DNA of 64,000 nt from Chitinophagaceae bacterium (GTDB lineage: Bacteria > Bacteroidota > Bacteroidia > Chitinophagales > Chitinophagaceae): the NCBI GenBank assembly GCA_013140985.1, contig JABFRU010000017.1, positions 1 to 64,000 on the forward strand. Direction: 5' to 3'. Positions 17,249 through 26,504 of this stretch are shown here, piece by piece. The first letter of the stretch is position 1. The number at the start of each line of letters is the position of its first letter. The notes below the pieces were generated by a model. It worked only from the letters and a program-made list of their open reading frames with translations, did not search any database and had not been told where the DNA came from. The position numbers and the translations under genes were made by a program.

Positions 17249-18592
17249 TTAATTTTCAAGTAGTTTGTTAATCGCAGCATTCACCCTGTCAAAAGGGAAA
17301 GAAGTGACTACCTGCTGCATTTGTTTTTTTATTTCTTCAGTACAAAGATTGCCAATACTACCTTCATGAAGCCCCCTCTCAACCTCCCCCAAAGGAGGAG
17401 GAGAATAAGAACCGCCTTCAACTTTCTGACCAACTATTTTATATGCGTCACGAAATGGAATTCCCTGCATTACCAGCTTGTTCACTTCATCGACAGTGAA
17501 AAGGTATTTATATTTTTCATCCGCCAGTATATCTTTTTTGATCTCAACATTACTCAGCATCAGTCCTGCCATTTCAATACAATCTTTCAGTATGCTGAAA
17601 GCGGGGAATAAATGTTCTTTTAATAATTGAAGATCCCGGTGATAGCCTGAAGGAAGGTTGGCCGTCATCATCATGATCTCATTGGGCAATGCTTTGATGC
17701 GGTTACAATGGCTACGGATCAGTTCAAATACATCCGGGTTTTTTTTATGCGGCATGATACTGCTGCCGGTGGTGAGTTCTGCAGGAAAAGAAATGAAGCC
17801 AAAATTCTGGTTCAGGTATAAGCAGGCATCCATGCTGAGTTTGCTCAATGTATCAGCCACATTCGCCAATGATTGGGCCACTATTCTCTCCGCTTTCCCT
17901 CTTCCCATTTGTGCATACACAACATTATAATTGAGGTCTTCAAAGCCAAGCAATGTTGTTGTCAGTCTCCTGTTGATGGGAAAGGAAGAGCCATAGCCTG
18001 CTGCAGAACCCAGCGGGTTTTTATTTATGACAGAGTAAGCTCCTTTTAATGTGATAGTATCATCAACAAGACTCTCTGCATAAGCGCCGAACCATAAGCC
18101 AAAAGAGGAAGGCATCGCTAATTGCAGGTGCGTATAGCCCGGCAATAAATGATCTTTATACTTTTCGCTTTGCGTTTGTAAAAGATCAAAGAAAGAATGG
18201 ATTGTTTTTGTCAACCCCTCCAATTCATTTCTTAGAAATAGTTTTATATCTACCAGCACCTGGTCATTTCGGCTGCGGGCGGAATGAATTTTTTTGCCAA
18301 TATCCCCCAGCTTTTGTGTCAGCAATAATTCTATTTGTGAATGGATGTCCTCGACGTCATCCTGTAATTTGAATTCGCCTTTCTTTACCTGGAAATAAAT
18401 GCTCTTTAATTCTTTTTGTAATTGAGACAATTCATCTTTCGTCAGCAATCCAACTGATTCCAGCATTTCTATATGCGCCAATGAACCGATCACATCAAAA
18501 GCAGCGAGATACATATCCATTTCCCTGTCTTTGCCAACAGTAAAAGTTTCTACTTCTTTGAGTGAGAGTGTATCTTTTTGCCACAACTTCAT
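17249..18592 (-). CDS. argH: Argininosuccinate lyase with a repeat-derived insert
   Basis: ArgH splits argininosuccinate into arginine and fumarate, the last step of arginine synthesis. The 447-residue protein has the superfamily signature GSSIMPHKKNPDVFELIRSH, plus SARSRNDQV and HLQLAMPSSFGLWFGAYAE. Near residues 393-408 the chain reads GGSYSPPPLGEVERGLHEGS where other ArgH proteins have a variable loop before the conserved HEGSIGNL; these residues are encoded by a C/G-rich dispersed repeat. The frame stays open and the catalytic regions are intact, so the enzyme is probably active. It is the last gene of the arginine operon and overlaps argE by four bases. Confidence 0.95.
   Translation of the reverse strand: MKLWQKDTLSLKEVETFTVGKDREMDMYLAAFDVIGSLAHIEMLESVGLLTKDELSQLQKELKSIYFQVKKGEFKLQDDVEDIHSQIELLLTQKLGDIGKKIHSARSRNDQVLVDIKLFLRNELEGLTKTIHSFFDLLQTQSEKYKDHLLPGYTHLQLAMPSSFGLWFGAYAESLVDDTITLKGAYSVINKNPLGSAAGYGSSFPINRRLTTTLLGFEDLNYNVVYAQMGRGKAERIVAQSLANVADTLSKLSMDACLYLNQNFGFISFPAELTTGSSIMPHKKNPDVFELIRSHCNRIKALPNEIMMMTANLPSGYHRDLQLLKEHLFPAFSILKDCIEMAGLMLSNVEIKKDILADEKYKYLFTVDEVNKLVMQGIPFRDAYKIVGQKVEGGSYSPPPLGEVERGLHEGSIGNLCTEEIKKQMQQVVTSFPFDRVNAAINKLLEN
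17366..17406. repeat. C/G-rich dispersed repeat embedded in argH
   Basis: The plus strand shows GCCCCCT-CTCAAC-CTCCC-CCAAA-GGAGG, the same layout and orientation as the intergenic copy near 4437 (GCCCCCT-AAAT-CTCCC-GCAA-GGGGG). It is read in frame by argH and encodes the SPPPLGEVERGL segment. Length and edges are approximate. Confidence 0.65.
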
Positions 18593-19659
18593 ACAAGCTG
18601 GTTTAATAACTGAATATACAATTCAATTCCCTTTTTTATTTCATCAGTATAAATATACTCATCCGCCGTGTGACTTCTTGCACTGTCGCCCGGGCCTATC
18701 TTCAATGAAGGAAAATTCATTAATGCTTTATCCGAAGTAGTAGGAGAGCCGTAACTGATCATCCCGAGTGTTGTTCCTGCCACCACTAATGGATGATCGG
18801 TAGCAATAGAGCTGGAACGTAATCTCGTACTTCTTGGTTTTACCTCGCACTGCACATTTGATTTGATGATATCCAGCATCTCTTCAAATGTGTATAATTC
18901 ATTTACCCGGCAGTCAACAACAAATTTGCATTGGGCAGGAACAACATTATGTGCTTTATTATCTGTTTCAATAACTGTCACACTCATTTTATTAGGCCCC
19001 AACAGGTCAGAAACTTTATCAAACCTGTAAGAAGAAAACCAATTGATATCTTTCATTGCTTTGTAAACAGCATTGTCACCTTCTTCTCTTGCTGCATGAC
19101 CGGCACGACCGGTGCTGATACAATCCAGCACCATCAGCCCTTTTTCAGCAACAGCCATTTGCATTTGAGTGGGCTCACCAACTATGGCAAAATCGATTTT
19201 ACCTAATTGCGGAAGCAAGGCTTCTATTCCATTGTGACCGGATATTTCCTCTTCGGCAGTGGCAGCTAATATAAAATTGTATTTGAGGGTTTCTTTATTA
19301 TAGAAATAAAGAAAAACTGCGATCAATGAAACAAGACTCCCGCCAGCATCATTACTGCCAAGACCAAAAAGTTTTCCATCTTTTTCTATGGCCAAAAAAG
19401 GATCGAGAGTATATCCTTTATTGGGTTTAACGGTGTCATGGTGAGAATTCAGTAAAATAGTAGGCTTGTTTGCGTCAAAGAATTTATTCTTTGCCCAAAC
19501 ATTGTATAAGTTTTGTTCCGTCTTTACTTTTTGTTTCTCTAAAAAGTTCCGGATAAGTTCAGCGCTGTTGTCTTCTTCTTTGCTGAATGAAGGGGTAGCA
19601 ATTAATTGTTTGAGCAGTTCAATAGCATTGGCCTGTAATATGGAAATATTGTTACTCAT
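18589..19659 (-). CDS. argE: M20 family N-acyl-ornithine/citrulline deacylase (ArgE-like)
   Basis: A 356-residue M20 metallopeptidase-fold enzyme that removes the acyl group late in arginine synthesis. The metal-site motifs are LLNSHHDTVKP (first His and Asp), GLGSNDAGGSL (bridging Asp), AATAEEEISGHNG (catalytic Glu pair) and a C-terminal SARSHTADEYIY (last His). Because the operon has an acyl-ornithine transcarbamylase, the natural substrate is likely N-succinyl- or N-acetylcitrulline and not N-acetylornithine (inference from family knowledge). The start MSNNISILQ at 19659 overlaps the argB end by 8 bases; an upstream in-frame extension runs through argB and is rejected. Confidence 0.88.
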   Translation of the reverse strand: MSNNISILQANAIELLKQLIATPSFSKEEDNSAELIRNFLEKQKVKTEQNLYNVWAKNKFFDANKPTILLNSHHDTVKPNKGYTLDPFLAIEKDGKLFGLGSNDAGGSLVSLIAVFLYFYNKETLKYNFILAATAEEEISGHNGIEALLPQLGKIDFAIVGEPTQMQMAVAEKGLMVLDCISTGRAGHAAREEGDNAVYKAMKDINWFSSYRFDKVSDLLGPNKMSVTVIETDNKAHNVVPAQCKFVVDCRVNELYTFEEMLDIIKSNVQCEVKPRSTRLRSSSIATDHPLVVAGTTLGMISYGSPTTSDKALMNFPSLKIGPGDSARSHTADEYIYTDEIKKGIELYIQLLNQLV

Positions 19660-20437
19660 TAACGATAGTTGTTCCGGCAGTTCCCTGGACAAGCTTTGAT
19701 AATTCCTGTGCATTCCCGATGATCACTTTATTGACCCCTGCATCGAGGGCAGCAAAAGCATTATCCATTTTCGGTATCATCCCGGCAATAATTTTTTCTT
19801 TAGATCTCAATTCCCGGTAGTAAAGGGGATCGATCTTACTGATAACGCTTTTTTCGTTGTTAATATCTAGCAAAACACCACTTTTTTCAAAAGAGTAAAC
19901 CAATGTCACTTCATACTGATCGCTTAATCCTTTCGCCAACTCCTGTGCAATGGTATCTGCATTTGTATTCAGCAATTGTCCCTGTTGATCATGTGTGATA
20001 GGGGCAAATACAAGTGTAATGTTCTTCTCAAGTAAGTTAGTTGCAAGATCCGTATTGATAGCATCCACATCACCCACAAATCCGTAATCCATCACTGCAT
20101 GCTTTCTTTTGTGTGCCAGAATGGAATCGCCATCTGCGCCGCAAAGACCAATCGCATTACAATTGTTTGCCTGCAATTGTGCCACAATATTTTTATTGAT
20201 ATAACCGGCATAGACCATCGTAACGATCTTCAACGTTTCTGCATCGGTGATCCTTCGCCCTTCCACTACCTGCTGCGGGATATTTAATTGTTCAGCAAGT
20301 CTTGTTGCTAATTTACCCCCGCCATGTACTAATATTTTTTTGTCATGGATCGCTGCAAATGCTTTTAAGAATGAAGAAAGTTTTTTCTCATCATCAATAA
20401 TGTTGCCCCCGATCTTTATGACATAGAGTTTAGCCAT
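19652..20437 (-). CDS. argB: N-acetylglutamate kinase (or N-succinylglutamate kinase)
   Basis: ArgB phosphorylates the acylated glutamate at the second step of arginine synthesis. The 261-residue amino-acid-kinase fold begins KLYVIKIGGNIIDDEKKL, followed by VHGGGKLATRLAEQL, the glycine-rich acyl-glutamate site; NTNADTIAQELAKGL and GMIPKMDNAFAALDAGV are further family motifs. There is no long N-terminal helix of the arginine-inhibited type, so feedback inhibition cannot be inferred. It overlaps argF' upstream and argE downstream by 8 bases each, so translation of the three is probably coupled. In phyla using the succinylated route the kinase acts on N-succinylglutamate; this cannot be told from sequence alone. 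Confidence 0.93.
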   Translation of the reverse strand: MAKLYVIKIGGNIIDDEKKLSSFLKAFAAIHDKKILVHGGGKLATRLAEQLNIPQQVVEGRRITDAETLKIVTMVYAGYINKNIVAQLQANNCNAIGLCGADGDSILAHKRKHAVMDYGFVGDVDAINTDLATNLLEKNITLVFAPITHDQQGQLLNTNADTIAQELAKGLSDQYEVTLVYSFEKSGVLLDINNEKSVISKIDPLYYRELRSKEKIIAGMIPKMDNAFAALDAGVNKVIIGNAQELSKLVQGTAGTTIVNE

Positions 20438-21401
20438 TATGTTTAAGGATTTCAGAGAGTACAGCCTGTGCTGCCCACACCCTGTTGCCCGCCTGTTGTG
20501 TAATAATGCTCATGGGGCCGTCCAATATCTCATCACTCAGCTCAACATTTCGTCTTACCGGTAAGCAATGCATCACTTTGGCATTATTTGTCCATTGCAT
20601 TTTTTTGTTCGTCAGCATCCATTTGGGATCGCTTTCATAGAGTTTTCCGTAATCTTTAAAAGTGCTCCAATTCTTTACATAAACAAAATCAGCATCCTTC
20701 AACGCTTCATCCTGGTTATGAGTAATGGTAGCACCTTTTGTAAATTCTTCGCTCAGTTCATAATCTTCGGGGTGAGTAATGACAAAATCGGCTTTGCCCC
20801 ATGCATTGATCCATTGGGAAAAACTATTGGCTACACATTGCGGTAATGGTTTTACATGCGGGGCCCATGTCAGCACAATTTTGGCTTTGCCACCTGTTCT
20901 CAAAGGAAATTCTGTAAGATCTTCCTGTATGGTAATTATATCTGTTAGCGATTGTAAAGGATGAAGTGTGGCGCTTTCTAAACTTACTACCGGTATGCCG
21001 GCGTATTTGATGAATTGTTTTATGTACAACTCACTGTAATCGTCTTCACGGTTCTTTAATGAGGGAAATGTCCTGATGGCCAAAATGTCGAAATATTTTC
21101 CAAAAATTGGGGCGGCATCTTTTACATGTTCAACAGTATTGCCACTCATGATGGCTTCATCTTCGAATTCTAATGCCCATCCTTCCTGCCCAACATTGAA
21201 AATGATTGCTTCCATGCCAAGGTTCTGAGCAGCGATCTGAGTGCTTAGCCTTGTACGCATACTTGGATTGAGAAATAAACATCCGATGCGTTTGTTTGCT
21301 CCCAACGTTTTATCAGAAAACGGATCAGCCTTATAAGCCAGTGCCTTTTTAACTAAAGCATCGATATTCTTCACATCATGTACTGAAACAAAATTTTTCA
21401 T
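20430..21401 (-). CDS. argF': N-succinylornithine (acyl-ornithine) carbamoyltransferase
   Basis: A 323-residue transcarbamylase that transfers the carbamoyl group to an acylated ornithine, as found in Bacteroidota and Xanthomonas in place of ordinary OTCase. The carbamoyl-phosphate motif appears as FLNPSMRTRLSTQ (about 44-56) and the second-domain motif as HPLQSLTDIIT; HCLPVRRNVELSDEI closes the active site. The residue at position 90, in GNTVEHVK, is Val. As I recall from published work, this position is Pro in the Bacteroides succinyl enzyme and Glu in the Xanthomonas acetyl enzyme, and small residues favour succinylornithine. That points to a succinyl preference here. It starts one base after argD ends. 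Confidence 0.9.
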   Translation of the reverse strand: MKNFVSVHDVKNIDALVKKALAYKADPFSDKTLGANKRIGCLFLNPSMRTRLSTQIAAQNLGMEAIIFNVGQEGWALEFEDEAIMSGNTVEHVKDAAPIFGKYFDILAIRTFPSLKNREDDYSELYIKQFIKYAGIPVVSLESATLHPLQSLTDIITIQEDLTEFPLRTGGKAKIVLTWAPHVKPLPQCVANSFSQWINAWGKADFVITHPEDYELSEEFTKGATITHNQDEALKDADFVYVKNWSTFKDYGKLYESDPKWMLTNKKMQWTNNAKVMHCLPVRRNVELSDEILDGPMSIITQQAGNRVWAAQAVLSEILKHNG

Positions 21402-21402
21402 A

Positions 21403-22557
21403 TTAACTCGCGGGGGTTGAAACTAAATTCTCTATTTCTTCTTTTATTGAATCAATGAATTGTTCAGCATCTCTTTTCTTTAGTGCCAGGGATGGCAATA
21501 AGCGGATCACATTGGGTTTTGCCTCACCGGTAAACACTTTTTGATTCCAGAGCAAATTCTTTTTCAGGTCTTTTAATCCCTCCGGTACATCGAAACCGAT
21601 CATCAGGCCACGGCCACGGACATTCTCCAGTTGAGGAATGCTTTCCAATTCATCTCTTAAATATTTACCGATCATTGTTGCATTGCCCATCAGTTTTTCT
21701 TCTTCGATAACTTCCAGCACGGCTAATGCTGCAGCGCAGGCTAAATGATTGCCGCCGAATGTGGTGCCTAATTGAAAATGTTTGGGTTTAATATGCGGGG
21801 CAATAATGATACCGGCAACTGGAAAACCATTTCCCATTCCCTTGGCCATTGTATAAATATCCGCATTCACTCCCGCAAAATCATGACTGAAGAATTTGCC
21901 GCTTCTGCCATAGCCGCATTGTACACTGTCAGCAATATAAACAGCGGCATACTCATCACATAAGCTGCGTATCTTTTTTAAGAAAGAAGAATCGGCAACG
22001 TTGATGCCACCAACTCCCTGTATGCCTTCAATGATCACAGAGGAAATTTTCTTTCCATTCTTTTCAAAACACTCTTCGAGTGCTGCTTCATCATTCAACG
22101 GAAGAAATATGACATTGTCGGTCTCGTTGACCGGTGCGATATAATTCTTATTATCTGTTGCTGAAACAGCCAATGATGTTCTGCCATGAAAAGCCTTACT
22201 GAAAGCAATTATCTTTTTTCTTCCATTATGGAAAGAAGCCATCTTCAAAGCATTTTCGTTGGCTTCAGCGCCGCTATTACAAAGAAAGAGCTGGTAATCT
22301 TCTTTGCCGGAGACCTTACCGAGTTTTTTTGCCAACTCTTGCTGCAGTGGTATCCTGATAGAGTTGGAATAGAATGCGATCTTTTCTAATTGCTCTTCAA
22401 TTCTTTTCACCCAATGAGGATGTGTGTGACCAATACTGATCACTGCATGCCCGCCATAGAGGTCAAGGTATTGTTCGCCTTTATCATCCCACACATAAGA
22501 GCCTTTTGCTTTTACAATTGTGATCTCGTTCAAAGGATATACATCAAATAAATTCAT
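21403..22557 (-). CDS. argD: Acyl-ornithine aminotransferase (class III, PLP)
   Basis: A 384-residue cytoplasmic PLP enzyme that makes acyl-ornithine from the acyl-glutamate semialdehyde, using glutamate as amino donor. Class III motifs are present: YLDLYGGHAVISIGHTHP near the start, FLCNSGAEANENALKMA, IIEGIQGVGGI, YIADSVQCGYGRSGKF, the PLP lysine in MAKGMGNGFPVAGI, and GTTFGGNHLACAAALA. It lies 9 bases after argC and one base before argF'. The operon context makes arginine synthesis its main role; such enzymes can also act on succinyldiaminopimelate. Confidence 0.93.
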   Translation of the reverse strand: MNLFDVYPLNEITIVKAKGSYVWDDKGEQYLDLYGGHAVISIGHTHPHWVKRIEEQLEKIAFYSNSIRIPLQQELAKKLGKVSGKEDYQLFLCNSGAEANENALKMASFHNGRKKIIAFSKAFHGRTSLAVSATDNKNYIAPVNETDNVIFLPLNDEAALEECFEKNGKKISSVIIEGIQGVGGINVADSSFLKKIRSLCDEYAAVYIADSVQCGYGRSGKFFSHDFAGVNADIYTMAKGMGNGFPVAGIIIAPHIKPKHFQLGTTFGGNHLACAAALAVLEVIEEEKLMGNATMIGKYLRDELESIPQLENVRGRGLMIGFDVPEGLKDLKKNLLWNQKVFTGEAKPNVIRLLPSLALKKRDAEQFIDSIKEEIENLVSTPAS

Positions 22558-22566
22558 GTCAATGTT

Positions 22567-23565
22567 TTAGAAATAATTTGCTTTAAGTTTTAAGCCGGCA
22601 GTCTCATCAAGCCCAAACATCAAATTCATATTCTGCACCGCCTGCCCGCTGGCGCCTTTTAATAAATTGTCAGCTACAGAATGAACAACAAGCATGCTGC
22701 CAACTTTTTCTAACTGGATAATACATTTATTGGTGTTCACCACTTGTTTTAAAAAAACAGGCTCTTTGGTGATATGGGTGAACGGATGACCAGAATAAAA
22801 ATCTTCATAGAGCTTATTAAGTTCTATCAAACTGAGATCACAGGGGACTTGGGAGCTTATGAATATGCCTCTTGCAAAATCTCCTCTCCACGGAACAAAG
22901 TTTACACCCCCAACCCCTGAAGGGGAGCCAGGAAAGCTTTCCTGCAATTGATGAAGCGACTGATGTATCTCTCCCAAATGTTGATGCGTTAAAGTTTTAT
23001 AAGCCTGGATATTATTTGATCTCCAGCTGAAATGAGAAGTGGCAGCCAGGGACTGACCTGCACCGGTGCTGCCTGTAATGCCTGTTGTATAAATATCTTT
23101 TAATAAACCTGCTTTTGCCAATGGTAAAAGTCCTAATTGAATTGTTGTTGCAAAACAACCGGGATTGGCAATGTTGTTGGCAGTTTTTATTTCATCCCTG
23201 TTCAATTCGGGAAGACCATAAGTGAATTTTCGATTTTCAATTTTCGATTTTTGATTTAAACGAAAGTCGTTTGCCAGGTCTATGACTTTGATCTTATCAG
23301 CGATCTTATTTTGAGTAAGAAAGTTCTCAGATTCACCGTGACCTAAGCAAAGAAACAGTACATCAATATCATCATTCAGTTCACCGGTGAATTGCAGATC
23401 AGCTTCTCCGACCAGATCCTGGTGAACAGAAGCTACCGGCTGCCCTGCATTGCTTCGGCTATGAATAAAAGAAACAGCTACATCCGGATGGTGGATCAAC
23501 AAGCGAATGAGCTCACCACCCGTATAACCTGCTCCGCCGATTATACCGACTTTAATTGCCATCAT
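22567..23565 (-). CDS. argC: N-acetyl-gamma-glutamyl-phosphate reductase with two repeat-derived segments
   Basis: ArgC reduces the acylated glutamyl phosphate to its semialdehyde with NADPH. The 332-residue protein has the Rossmann motif VGIIGGAGYTGGELIRLL, the catalytic Cys137 in ANPGCFATTIQLGLLPL, and HQHLGEIHQ with FVPWRGDFARGIF. Two surface segments look foreign: residues 104-112 (NQKSKIENR), encoded by an A/T-rich repeat, and 213-220 (GSPSGVGG), encoded by a C/G-rich repeat. Both keep the frame. The start is MMAIKVG; either Met may be used, and it overlaps the argG end by 11-14 bases. Confidence 0.94.
   Translation of the reverse strand: MMAIKVGIIGGAGYTGGELIRLLIHHPDVAVSFIHSRSNAGQPVASVHQDLVGEADLQFTGELNDDIDVLFLCLGHGESENFLTQNKIADKIKVIDLANDFRLNQKSKIENRKFTYGLPELNRDEIKTANNIANPGCFATTIQLGLLPLAKAGLLKDIYTTGITGSTGAGQSLAATSHFSWRSNNIQAYKTLTHQHLGEIHQSLHQLQESFPGSPSGVGGVNFVPWRGDFARGIFISSQVPCDLSLIELNKLYEDFYSGHPFTHITKEPVFLKQVVNTNKCIIQLEKVGSMLVVHSVADNLLKGASGQAVQNMNLMFGLDETAGLKLKANYF
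22904..22930. repeat. Short C/G-rich dispersed repeat inside argC
   Basis: The plus strand has ACCCCCAACCCCTGAAGGGG with the hairpin CCCCT-GA-AGGGG (22914-22925). It encodes the GSPSGVGG segment of ArgC and resembles a shorter relative of the repeats near 4437 and 17371. Confidence 0.5.
23224..23262. repeat. A/T-rich short-unit repeat inside argC
   Basis: Units of the type (A)TTTTCGATTTTCAATTTTCG and GATTTTTGATTT are strung together on the plus strand. The minus strand reads them as QKSKIENRKF. Similar GATTTTTGATT units make up most of the upp-anmK intergenic region at 31316-31433. Confidence 0.6.
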
Positions 23566-24754
23566 TTTCTTTTTGAACTGCTTTATAAATAGATGTCTGG
23601 TTGCCGAATATTTTACTAAAACCTCTTACATCATCACCGGTAAACCCGGTATTCATCTCACCGTATTTTCCAAATTTGCTGCTCATCAAATCGTACTTGC
23701 TTTCGATGCCGGTTATTTGGAAACGATAGGGCATCAATTGCACAAATACATCGCCGCTTACATTTTGCTGGCTGTTCTCTAAAAATGCTTCGATATCTCT
23801 CATCACCGGGTCTAGTATTTGCCCTTCATGCATCCAGTTGCCGTAGAATTGTGCCAAAGTATCTTTCCATTGCAATTGCCATTTGGTCAGCACATGTTTT
23901 TCCAATGCATGATGTGATTTCAGGATGATCATCGGAGCCGCTGCTTCAAAACCCACTCTTCCTTTTATACCAATGATCGTATCACCGACATGAATATCTC
24001 TGCCGATGCCATAGGCGCCTGCAATAGACTGTAAGTATTGAATGGCTTCTGAAGGATGAGAAAACTTTTTGTCATCAACGGCAACCAACTCCCCTTTAGT
24101 AAAACTTAGACGGACTTCCTGGCTTCCAGACTTGCTGACTTGCGTCGGCCATGCTTCTTCCGGCAATATTCCTTTTGATGAAAGTGTTTCTTTTCCTCCC
24201 ACACTTGTTCCCCACAACCCTTTATTTATAGAATACATTGCTTTGTCAAAATTCATTTCTACTCCCTTGCTTCTTAAATAAGCAATTTCTTCTTCACGAC
24301 TCAACTTTAAGTCACGGATAGGAGTGATGATCTCCACACCGGGGATCATAATATGAAAGATCATATCAAATCTCACCTGGTCATTACCTGCGCCTGTGCT
24401 TCCATGCGCTACGGCTTTCGCATCCAATTTTTTTACATGCTCCGCAATATGTAATGCCTGGCTTAATCTTTCTGCAGATACAGAAAGGGGATAGGTATTA
24501 TTCTTTAAACAATTTCCGAAAATGAGATATTTAATGATGCGGTCATAATATCCTTTTACCGCATCAATGGTGGTATGTGTTTTTACTCCCAGTTTATAAG
24601 CATGTGCTTCTATTTTTTTTAATTCATCATCACTAAAGCCACCGGTATTGACAATGATGCTGTGTACGTCATAGCCTTTTTCTTCACTGAGATATTTTAC
24701 ACAGTAAGTGGTGTCAAGTCCGCCGCTGAATCCCAAAACTATTTTTTTACTCAT
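23552..24754 (-). CDS. argG: Argininosuccinate synthase
   Basis: ArgG joins citrulline and aspartate using ATP to give argininosuccinate. The 400-residue protein starts with the PP-loop ATP motif VLGFSGGLDTTYCVKYL and contains AHGSTGAGNDQVRFDM and GLWGTSVGGKE, both typical of the family. In Bacteroidota operons argG often comes second, after a GNAT gene, as here with a 5-base gap. The downstream end overlaps argC. Nothing unusual was seen in the active-site segments. Confidence 0.97.
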   Translation of the reverse strand: MSKKIVLGFSGGLDTTYCVKYLSEEKGYDVHSIIVNTGGFSDDELKKIEAHAYKLGVKTHTTIDAVKGYYDRIIKYLIFGNCLKNNTYPLSVSAERLSQALHIAEHVKKLDAKAVAHGSTGAGNDQVRFDMIFHIMIPGVEIITPIRDLKLSREEEIAYLRSKGVEMNFDKAMYSINKGLWGTSVGGKETLSSKGILPEEAWPTQVSKSGSQEVRLSFTKGELVAVDDKKFSHPSEAIQYLQSIAGAYGIGRDIHVGDTIIGIKGRVGFEAAAPMIILKSHHALEKHVLTKWQLQWKDTLAQFYGNWMHEGQILDPVMRDIEAFLENSQQNVSGDVFVQLMPYRFQITGIESKYDLMSSKFGKYGEMNTGFTGDDVRGFSKIFGNQTSIYKAVQKENDGN

Positions 24755-24759
24755 GCCCG

Positions 24760-25467
24760 TCAGAGATTAAAGAGGTGATGAAAAAAAGATTTCGGCTTGC
24801 CGCCGTTGTTGTTCTTATCTTTTTTCATAAATGGTCTTAGTAATTTCCATTGTTTAAACCGGAGCAAACGTTCAAAGCCTTTTACATTTTCTTTGAAATA
24901 TTGTTTTGTTTCTTCCGGCTCATAATGATCTTTCGGATCATAAAGCATTGCTGTGCACATACAGTTCTTTCTTTCTTTACTCATCAGTATCTCATAGTTC
25001 ACACAGCTTTTGCACCCGGCCCAGAAAGCCTCATCCTGTGTAAGCTCAGAATAAGTGACAGGTTCATAACCGAGATCACTGTTGATCTTCATCACAGCCA
25101 ACCCAGTCGTTAATCCAAAAATTTTAGCTTCAGGATACTTTTCTCTTGATAAAGCGAATATTCTTTGCTTGATTGCTTTTGCCACGCCGCTTTTTCTAAA
25201 TGCAGGAGCAACGATCAATCCGCTGTTTGCTACATATTCACCATGGCTCCATGTTTCGATATAACAAAAGCCCACCCATTCATTTTGATCAGTGATGGCG
25301 ATGACAGCTTTACCTTCATCAATTTTTGATTCTATGTACTCAGGAGAACGTTTGGCGATACCGGTACCCCTTGCTGCCGCAGATGCTTCCATTTCATCTG
25401 TGATAGTTTTGGAGTAAACCTTATCGGCGGTTGTAGCCACCCTGATGATTATGTTTTGATCTTCCAA
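24760..25467 (-). CDS. GNAT family N-acyltransferase, first gene of the arginine operon
   Basis: A 235-residue protein with a GNAT fold (about residues 6-165): EWVGFCYIETW is strand 4 and LIVAPAFRKSGVAKAIKQRIF contains the acyl-CoA pyrophosphate loop. Its place at the head of the operon, with no other argA or argJ in sight, makes it the likely enzyme acylating glutamate (N-acetyl- or N-succinylglutamate synthase); this is inference. A cysteine set C152-x2-C155...C169-x-C171 looks able to bind a metal, which is unusual for the fold. A tail of about 60 residues rich in Lys and aromatic residues follows. Upstream lies a leader with an Arg-rich peptide, so arginine control of this gene is likely. 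Confidence 0.8.
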   Translation of the reverse strand: MEDQNIIIRVATTADKVYSKTITDEMEASAAARGTGIAKRSPEYIESKIDEGKAVIAITDQNEWVGFCYIETWSHGEYVANSGLIVAPAFRKSGVAKAIKQRIFALSREKYPEAKIFGLTTGLAVMKINSDLGYEPVTYSELTQDEAFWAGCKSCVNYEILMSKERKNCMCTAMLYDPKDHYEPEETKQYFKENVKGFERLLRFKQWKLLRPFMKKDKNNNGGKPKSFFHHLFNL

Positions 25468-25491
25468 GTTGTGATAATTGTTATGTAGGGG

Positions 25492-25566
25492 TTCACCAGT
25501 CCAAAAAATATTTTTTTTCGGGGTAATTCACTGACAGGGACCATGGTGAAGGGCTCGTCCTGTCAG
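25492..25566 (-). promoter_or_regulatory. Interlocking leader hairpins before the arginine operon
   Basis: Reading the minus strand, hairpin A pairs CTGACAGG (25559-25566) with CCTGTCAG (25531-25538), 8 bp perfect, its 5' arm containing the stop codon of the leader peptide. Hairpin B pairs TTCACCA (25544-25550, in the loop of A) with TGGTGAA (25492-25498). The order A5'-B5'-A3'-B3' means that the two either compete or form a pseudoknot. B ends 24 bases before the GNAT start codon. A run AAAAAAAATATTTTTT lies between A and B but does not follow a stem directly, so a standard terminator is not evident. Confidence 0.55.
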
Positions 25567-25685
25567 AACAGACGGGTACGTCGTGGACGGGAAAAAGTGA
25601 ACACATCAAAGCCAACAGAATAAACACCGCTGGTGATGGAGCCGTGGAAGGCTAACTGTTTAGTATGTGTCAAAATGTTCGGCAT
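25563..25685 (-). CDS. Candidate arginine leader peptide (40 codons, Arg-rich end)
   Basis: A short ORF starting with ATG at 25685, MPNILTHTKQLAFHGS..., and ending FSRPRRTRLF then TGA. Four of the last eight codons are Arg (CGT CCA CGA CGT ACC CGT CTG TTC). It begins about 6-8 bases after the expected transcription start, so it would be the first thing translated on the arginine mRNA, and its stop codon lies in the 5' arm of a hairpin. These features are what is expected of a ribosome-sensing leader for arginine: either pausing at Arg codons or a nascent-chain arrest would change the downstream fold. I do not recognise the peptide. A longer in-frame start at 25757 lies upstream of the promoter and is unlikely. 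No homologue search could be made, so the gene call is tentative. Confidence 0.6.
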   Translation of the reverse strand: MPNILTHTKQLAFHGSITSGVYSVGFDVFTFSRPRRTRLF

Positions 25686-25697
25686 GTAAATCGGGTA

Positions 25698-25727
25698 CAA
25701 ATGTATAATAATAATTGGTTTTGCAAC
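25698..25727 (-). promoter_or_regulatory. Promoter of the arginine operon
   Basis: On the minus strand TACATTTG (25698-25705) is an exact TAnnTTTG box. GTTG at 25724-25727 lies 18 bases upstream at the -33 position (one mismatch to TTTG). Transcription should begin near 25690-25693, just before the leader ATG. No clear ArgR-type palindrome overlaps it. The sequence between 25728 and 25802 is A/T-rich with no gene seen. Confidence 0.65.
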
Positions 25728-25802
25728 CTCATTTTTTGTTATAAAATTGACTCCCAAATTTGGGTGTTAAAATGTGTATGGATAGTTGTTTTGTTACGGG
25801 GT

Positions 25803-26504
25803 TTAATCAGCAGAAGAATACAACAAGAAAATAGCAGGTCGTTTATGAATATCGGTTTTTTCTTTGTTCCACTCAACGATCGTTTTTGTTTTGATCCATT
25901 CATTCTTACCGGTAATATTAACAGCTAAACAAAGTTTTGTTGAAGGGGCACAATTCTTTAATATAGCCTCCAGCAATTGATTATTCCGGTAAGGGGTTTC
26001 AATAAAAATTTGTGTACAGCTCTTTTTAAAGGATTCGGTTTCCAAAGCTTTGATCGTTTTAATTCTTTGCTGGTTGTCTATAGGCAGGTAACCAACAAAC
26101 TGGAATTGCTGTCCGTTCATTCCACTTGCCATCAGGGCTAATAGTATAGAACTCGGACCAACTAATGGTTTTATTGTATAATTCATTTCCTGCGCAATGG
26201 CTGCTAATGGCTGCCCCGGATCAGCTACTCCCGGGCAACCGGCTTCGCTGATGATGCCAATATTCTTTTTTCCTTTTATTGCTTTTTTAAATGATTGCGC
26301 CGCTGTAGCGGCGTCATCCATATTATGCCACTCATAATTATCGATCACCATTTCTTTCCAAAGCTGTTTAAAAAAACGACGGGTGGTTCTTTCATTTTCT
26401 GCAAAAAAAACCTGGCAATCTTTGATGGCTGCAATGATGTAAGTCGGAATTGCATCAAGGCCTTCTTCATCCAGCAATGACGGTATGAGGTAAACAGCTG
26501 ACAT
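25803..26504 (-). CDS. RsmI-like SAM-dependent methyltransferase (tetrapyrrole methylase fold)
   Basis: A 233-residue protein of the tetrapyrrole-methylase superfamily, closest in motifs to RsmI, which 2'-O-methylates C1402 of 16S rRNA. The signatures are VFFAENERTTRRFF near the start, IISEAGCPGVADPGQPLAAIA (the SAM-binding loop) and LVGPSSILLALMASGMNG. It is shorter than E. coli RsmI (286) and lacks the usual N-terminal GNLxD start, reading instead YLIPSLLDEEGLDAIP, so it may be the Bacteroidota paralogue of RsmI and its exact RNA target is not certain. It follows the EI24 gene with a 1-base gap. Confidence 0.85.
   Translation of the reverse strand: MSAVYLIPSLLDEEGLDAIPTYIIAAIKDCQVFFAENERTTRRFFKQLWKEMVIDNYEWHNMDDAATAAQSFKKAIKGKKNIGIISEAGCPGVADPGQPLAAIAQEMNYTIKPLVGPSSILLALMASGMNGQQFQFVGYLPIDNQQRIKTIKALETESFKKSCTQIFIETPYRNNQLLEAILKNCAPSTKLCLAVNITGKNEWIKTKTIVEWNKEKTDIHKRPAIFLLYSSAD

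Follow-up and report, generated by a model that had tools for sequence, protein, structure and literature searches.

How might arginine biosynthesis be controlled in Bacteroidota that carry no ArgR? The question is raised here by a short Arg-rich open reading frame at the head of an arginine operon in a Chitinophagaceae bacterium, on the minus strand of the window (the whole 64,000-nucleotide stretch of DNA that was analysed). The original prediction had read this ORF as a leader through which the ribosome senses arginine or arginyl-tRNA, with arrest by the nascent chain kept as a second option. The leader precedes a GNAT gene followed by seven genes consistent with the arginine pathway, and from gene order and strand these eight would form one operon:

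24760..25467, minus strand: GNAT-family acetyltransferase, first gene of the operon (Pfam PF00583 over cut-off; no NCBIfam match)
23552..24754, minus strand: argG, argininosuccinate synthase (TIGR00032 over cut-off; PF00764, PF20979)
22567..23565, minus strand: argC (TIGR01850 over cut-off)
21403..22557, minus strand: argD-like class-III aminotransferase (PF00202 over cut-off; best NCBIfam match, TIGR00707, below cut-off)
20430..21401, minus strand: carbamoyltransferase of the N-acetylornithine type (PF02729 and PF00185 over cut-off; best NCBIfam match, NF003384, just below cut-off at 280.1 of 288)
19652..20437, minus strand: argB, acetylglutamate kinase (TIGR00761 over cut-off)
18589..19713, minus strand: ArgE/DapE-like M20 deacylase (PF01546 over cut-off; TIGR01910 below cut-off)
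17249..18592, minus strand: argH, argininosuccinate lyase (TIGR00838 over cut-off)

Upstream of these genes the following elements are distinguished:

25698..25705, minus strand: Bacteroidota -7 promoter box TACATTTG, an exact TAnnTTTG (from the sequence)
25563..25685, minus strand: leader ORF, 40 codons plus the stop TGA (translated frame; homologues in genomes of the family)
25590..25679, minus strand: conserved peptide body, codons 3-32 (invariant residues, pN/pS)
25578..25583, minus strand: Arg-Arg codon pair CGA-CGT, peptide R35-R36, the proposed stall site (CGA bias)
25531..25566, minus strand: P1 hairpin, with an 8-bp outer stem of CTGACAGG (25566-25559) and CCTGTCAG (25538-25531) (RNAalifold of 76 sequences)
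25555-25558, minus strand: ACGA bulge of P1, beside the inner stem of 25552-25554 with 25540-25542
25545..25548, minus strand: CACC in the P1 loop, proposed partner of GGUG in the P2 loop (flanking-pair covariation; ACC/TGGT co-occurrence)
25490..25502, minus strand: P2 hairpin GGAC-UGGUG-AACC, with GGUG of its loop at 25494-25497 (weak)

The layout originally described for the head of the operon is borne out. The 40-codon ORF encodes MPNILTHTKQLAFHGSITSGVYSVGFDVFTFSRPRRTRLF and then the stop, with Arg at four of the last eight residues; the promoter box at 25705-25698 is the exact TAnnTTTG that had been claimed; and the stop codon TGA (25565-25563) lies, as had been noted, inside the 5′ arm of the 8-bp P1 hairpin. 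The ATG follows the box at 12 nt to its 3′ side. With the box placed at -12 to -5 relative to the transcription start, as given in the accessible part of PMC9723704, +1 is predicted near 25693, 8 nt 5′ of the ATG, in line with the distance of about 8 bases originally expected. An exact TAnnTTTG at most 70 nt upstream of the leader start was found for 60 of 62 HTK-type leaders (window included), compared with 1 of 62 when a control stretch was scanned. Among the outcomes named in advance as speaking against the leader was transcription starting downstream of 25685; it was not seen, the promoter box lying upstream of the ORF and the start itself being a prediction. No Pfam (E<=0.001) or NCBIfam family matched the leader peptide, and at the same Pfam threshold it showed no match to the SpeFL family DUF2618. 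A search of 25300-26000 against Rfam gave no family at gathering score, with two snoRNA matches far below gathering as the only returns.

Is such a leader kept in relatives? At E<=0.1 a protein search with the leader peptide hit 54 of the family's 294 genomes, with some weaker hits lying inside frames of about 900-1040 codons and looking like chance; at E<=3.5e-6 homologues are present in 39 of the 294, own genome included. By profile, a homologue of the window's leader is present at 40 of 80 named GNAT loci; at 39 of the other 40 an unlike ORF, read by eye, occupies about the same place and also ends in Arg (examples are SPRPRRVF-stop, PRPRRGC-stop, PFWVRR-stop and RRPRI-stop), and the last locus (L034) is masked there by Ns. 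For a wider count, 271 regions and the window were reduced to 226 by dropping identical, short or N-rich ones, and to 187 by a 90-mer filter; 12 of the 187, the window and 11 loci from the peptide search, are in the set because of the leader, and kin sequences are counted repeatedly except in cluster counts. Of these 187 deduplicated GNAT-upstream regions, 150 contain an ORF whose last 12 residues include at least three Arg; the reverse strand gives 8 such regions, and ten dinucleotide shuffles give 5.5 on average (range 1-10). For at least four Arg the counts are 60 of 187, 3 and 0.9, respectively. Clustering of codons for the operon's own amino acid within a leader ORF, a feature of attenuators, is found here. 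The observation of an Arg-rich leader ORF is thereby confirmed, and is stronger than the original prediction could know; loss of the ORF or of its Arg codons in relatives, the other outcome that had been named against it, was not seen, both being kept. As for the C-terminal SRPRRTR, whose conservation had been proposed as a check, the residues themselves are not invariant, and what recurs is an F-x-P-R-P-R-R-like tail with CGA-CGN, after which the endings vary between leaders.

Beyond the family, Arg-ended leaders were seen by eye at GNAT loci of four other families of the phylum (f2, f3, f8 and f23), in one f24 genome and, with a TIRR-stop ending, in one f22 genome. No clear Arg-ended leader was seen by eye in four f5, two f24 and two f10 genomes, nor in the genomes read from f25, f29, f37, f39, f41, f44 and f47; some of these genomes have ORFs with two or three scattered Arg. 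Eighteen of the 20 loci L142-L161 lie outside the 187-region set and were read separately. By eye, a similar hairpin around CCTAYGYGG stands 3′ of the leader in some distant families (L127, L131, L136, L140, L141, L148), and it is present in L141 and L148 too, where no clear Arg-rich leader was seen.

Control of the operon by ArgR is not indicated, as ArgR (PF02863) was not found encoded in the own genome by a search that was positive in 8 of 14 controls, including Bacteroides ihuae. Across a sample of 296 genomes of the phylum, ArgR is present in 109, the GNAT gene in 124 and both in 3, that is, ArgR in 3 of 124 GNAT-positive versus 106 of 172 GNAT-negative genomes, a near-exclusion that may reflect phylogeny only. 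Among the three genomes with both, G004 has a weak match with an internal stop; in the others, G516 and G524, the ArgR gene immediately precedes the GNAT gene, at the place taken by the leader in other genomes.

The choice of codon within the Arg cluster is strongly biased. CGA is the rarest Arg codon, accounting for 7.0% of the 4384 Arg codons counted over 387 long operon-strand frames, and it stands first in the terminal Arg-Arg pair in 92 of the 102 type-A leaders with such a pair, in 47 of 58 other leaders having it, and in 48 of 59 clusters represented by one sequence per 50%-identity cluster. Type A was picked by a pattern that fixes the arms of P1, and outside type A the leader was taken as the ORF richest in Arg near its end, which biases the counts there towards Arg. 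Where CGACG occurs close to the leader end it is always in frame, in 95 of 95 type-A cases and in 52 of 52 others; the type-A count is free of selection for Arg, because P1 set the frame, and the other count is not. Of 55 rows from the window's clade, 48 have Arg at this position, every one encoded by CGA, and most other third positions vary. The tRNA-Arg anticodons found in the own genome are ACG, CCG, TCT and CCT. With an anticodon called for 48 of 50 tRNA matches (two weak ones had none), no TCG anticodon was found, and CGA therefore should be read by the ACG tRNA-Arg, whose wobble base is modified to inosine. On another contig of the same genome (C47, L321, 281-1591), a cluster of ten tRNA genes in about 1.3 kb contains an extra Arg-ACG and an extra Arg-TCT; it may be of phage or plasmid origin. 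The residues before the Arg-Arg pair are also uneven: of 57 cluster representatives, 27 have Pro at -1 and 26 have it at -3, against a background of 4.9% in bodies, and 19 have Phe at -5, versus 5.8% in bodies.

The reading that we judge probable is a ribosome-mediated arginine attenuator, which would stall on CGA-CGN, possibly with the aid of the nascent chain, and whose output would not be a classical terminator. Of the readings weighed, the one originally proposed, that the ribosome senses arginine or Arg-tRNA, has the strongest comparative support, from conservation, from the choice of codons, from the position in the genome and from the lack of ArgR. A ribosome would load on the leader soon after transcription starts and read to the terminal Arg cluster, where CGA would depend on a single decoder, the ACG (inosine) tRNA-Arg, and be read slowly. 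With charged tRNA-Arg in short supply, the ribosome would stall on CGA-CGN; with ample arginine, it would reach the UGA in the P1 5′ arm and leave. Depending on its position, P1 would or would not fold and dock with P2 through its loop, and the P1/P2 fold would in turn set expression of the arg operon.

One point against this account comes from the peptide itself. Seven residues (N3, H7, K9, F13, H14, V24 and D27) are invariant in 55 of 55 non-redundant homologues with varying third positions, mean pN/pS over the body is 0.139 (48 of 55 rows used), and in 34 loci (561 pairs) the body stands at 0.134 versus 0.117 for the GNAT gene of those loci. RNA structure was rejected as a cause of this conservation, as 33 sequences gave no consensus fold in the body, at about 0 kcal/mol. 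A low pN/pS where no consensus RNA fold is found shows that the peptide itself is selected, and the body is constrained as an enzyme would be, which a pure codon sensor does not need. Amino-acid selection on a leader peptide is what ligand-dependent arrest peptides such as TnaC, SpeFL and AAP display; their ligands are tryptophan for TnaC, ornithine for SpeFL and arginine for AAP, the fungal arginine attenuator peptide. By analogy, the peptide in the exit tunnel together with L-arginine or Arg-tRNA could be the primary sensor, stalling the ribosome at the Arg cluster or the stop, and the recurrence of a tail F-x-P-x-P-R-R across otherwise unlike leaders would suit this. We nevertheless consider arrest as the primary sensor unlikely, since the Arg codons are kept across clades whose bodies are very unlike each other, some leaders have just 22-23 residues, and the CGA preference acts at the level of the codon and is not required by a pure peptide sensor. 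The original caveat on nascent-chain arrest stays in play for the window's clade, with its body conserved at the protein level, and within the codon-based attenuator the conserved body probably strengthens or tunes the stall.

Two early codons differ from most of the body in being near-fixed even at third positions, T6 (ACA in 43 of 44 Thr rows) and H7 (CAT in 55 of 55). The motif CTGACA/TTGACA over leader codons 5-7 (25673-25665, minus strand) is complementary to the 3′ arm of P1; it is present in only 37 of 63 loci, and was set aside as a partner of that arm.

The RNA that follows the Arg codons is conserved as structure. The alignment includes 76 of the 85 loci of type A1, the window's type, and the 100% pairing of the P1 outer helix in type A follows by construction from the pattern that picked it. 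In these 76 sequences RNAalifold found P1 and the inner stem; P2 and the loop pairing were not predicted, the latter because the tool predicts no pseudoknots. Changes that keep pairing occur within P1: columns 29:56 read CG in 61, UA in 11 and UG in 4 with no mismatch, and an inner pair reads AU in 39, GC in 22, GU in 5 and CG in 2, with 8 unpaired. The P2 helix is paired in 77.9% of cells with four pairs changed on both sides, and in the window only its outer two pairs form. Taken as a whole, the window's leader RNA shows no unusual stability (z -0.96, equalled by 39 of 200 shuffles), and the P1/P2 fold has 93.2% of its cells paired versus 26-42% when slid.

Docking of the two loops is suggested by covariation between them. 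Of 115 type-A loci, 85 have both ACC in the P1 loop and GGU in P2, 9 have the loop motif only, none GGU only and 21 neither (Fisher 2.7e-16, relatedness ignored). The position flanking the loop core, which was not selected by the pattern, forms a standard pair in 52 of 76 sequences, 27 of them with both sides changed, and is unpaired in 24; its pairs cover all four Watson-Crick combinations (CG, GC, UA and AU) and GU, and in 83 loci it is paired in 65.1% versus 35.6% when shuffled. A tree-based test of kissing covariation, covering 66 of 83 A1 loci, gave just 1-2 supported independent pairs per test. In L114 and L261, read by eye, the loop core ACC has become GCC together with a downstream change of GGU to GGC, and the P2 stem has changed to GGG/CCC. 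An extended pairing of ACCAnGGYCC with GGAYTGGT was discarded, as by eye the GGTC/GGCC and GGAC/GGAT variants do not co-vary. A candidate for an alternative helix, upstream of P1 (CCTGT with ACAGG), is paired in 76.8% of cells versus 76.1% in shuffles, 9 of 500 of which reach it, and has one pair with double changes. Five leaders ending in VRR-stop (L060, L064, L073, L076 and L116) can form, by eye, a small CCC-GGG hairpin immediately 5′ of CGACGT, despite variation in some of the encoded residues, and have a different hairpin after the leader stop.

Could P1/P2 be a metabolite- or protein-binding RNA, with the leader ORF merely keeping the region translated? Under strict filters the P1/P2 model gave one match per genome in 45 of 147 genomes, 40 of the 45 just upstream of the GNAT gene at the arg operon, one at the leader match and three not comparable, with the weakest (G102, E 0.009) located elsewhere; unpaired letters are also conserved, in the ACGA bulge and in GTGAA after P1. 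These points would fit a binding RNA, which we hold to be very unlikely all the same, as the Arg cluster and the CGA preference are also found in leaders that have no P1, and 25300-26000 gave no Rfam family at gathering score. It is highly improbable that the ORF encodes a small protein acting in trans, for which protein-level selection would speak, given that the type-A stop is buried in P1, that the peptide has no Pfam or NCBIfam match and that unlike peptides stand at the same place in other clades. Equally improbable is the inverted repeat as a DNA operator with incidental Arg codons, despite the strongly conserved P1 arm sequences: the arms are 20 nt apart in the window, the inner stem covaries, and the Arg codons are in frame with third positions free.

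If a stalled ribosome sets the P1/P2 fold, what would the fold control? The comparison with his and trp leaders in the original prediction holds for the Arg codons in the leader and fails for the terminator, so the output would be unlike that of trp and his. A scan of 183 regions with an assigned leader found a terminator-like site in 0 of 85 A1 regions (window included; shuffles 0-6), and an intrinsic terminator after P1 or P2 is rejected as the common output. Elsewhere such sites exceed the shuffles, at 2 of 30 in A2 (0-1) and 11 of 68 in the others (0-3), and some relatives outside A1 may use an intrinsic terminator. A looser scan of 25300-25900 in the window gave one terminator-like site, at 25633-25612 inside the leader body, with 0.4 expected. 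With no terminator-like site in the window's type, the fold would probably act through Rho-dependent termination, through translation initiation or through mRNA stability. In 61 of 85 A1 loci, 21-28 nt separate the 3′ end of P2 from the predicted GNAT start downstream.

The spacing between the Arg codons and P1 takes two main values: of 95 type-A occurrences, 51 have the first base of CGACG 12 nt from the stop and 41 have it 18 nt away. The leading edge of the ribosome is near +13 from the A-site codon by the toeprint position in the part of PMC13009471 that was available. On this model and at the shorter spacing, about two letters of P1 would lie under a ribosome that has CGA in its A site, and about five of eight under one that has advanced by a codon; coverage of P1 hinges on which codon stalls, and the geometry is therefore compatible with either sign of the switch. 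Frameshifting into downstream frames was dropped, as by eye the stops differ between loci.

More tentatively, and at somewhat less than an even chance, the leaders may belong to an attenuator family that spans several Bacteroidota families and combines an inosine-decoded CGA-CGN stall, a lineage-specific nascent chain constrained much as an enzyme is, and docked hairpins with an output other than an intrinsic terminator, seated where at least two relatives carry ArgR. If the attenuator is real, it would offer an explanation of arginine control in ArgR-less Bacteroidota, extend amino-acid leader peptides in the phylum with a testable codon rule, and be a case in which natural selection picks a slow, rare Arg codon as the sensor. 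No description of an arginine leader peptide before argG in Bacteroidota was found among titles and abstract openings, with subscription papers and preprints outside that search, and the main text of PMC2965389, in its accessible part, has no occurrence of Bacteroid-, arginine or argG. Leader-peptide candidates have been put forward in the same phylum: for Flavobacterium psychrophilum, leader-peptide attenuation of amino-acid operons was suggested from transcript data, and the available portion of that report names no arginine operon, peptide or codon rule for them (PMC9723704).

How, then, does the leader compare with known systems? In attenuators of the trp/his type, a short ORF heads a biosynthetic operon and contains control codons for its own amino acid (codon data from the accessible part of PMC4046918). 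The present leader is like them in both respects, and unlike them in having no terminator-like site in 85 A1 regions, a rare codon fixed in the control pair, a conserved peptide body and loop-loop pairing between two hairpins. In Salmonella, according to the part of PMC6386406 available, two consecutive Arg codons in the speF leader orf34/SpeFL sense arginine and change mRNA folding; the peptide is conserved, and termination within the leader is by Rho, with no rho-independent terminator found there. The Arg-Arg pair, the conserved peptide and, in the window's type, the lack of a rho-independent terminator are shared with our leader. The same part of that report describes a leader that precedes an inducible ornithine decarboxylase of gammaproteobacteria and in which regulation worked with rare as well as with frequent Arg codons; here, by contrast, CGA is strongly favoured, the peptide has no Pfam match and the operon is one of arginine biosynthesis. 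The rbfL leader of Staphylococcus aureus is also short and reads arginine supply via rare Arg codons; it controls a biofilm regulator by covering its ribosome-binding site, as stated in the accessible text of PMC13009471, whereas our leader heads a biosynthetic operon. With TnaC (PMC8429421, in the part available), and also with the fungal arginine attenuator peptide as generally known, it shares a conserved short leader peptide beside genes of the sensed amino acid. Those two systems depend on a ligand and the nascent chain, whereas here clades with unlike bodies keep the Arg cluster; with the Arg codons kept while bodies are replaced between clades, codon-based and nascent-chain stalling become separable.
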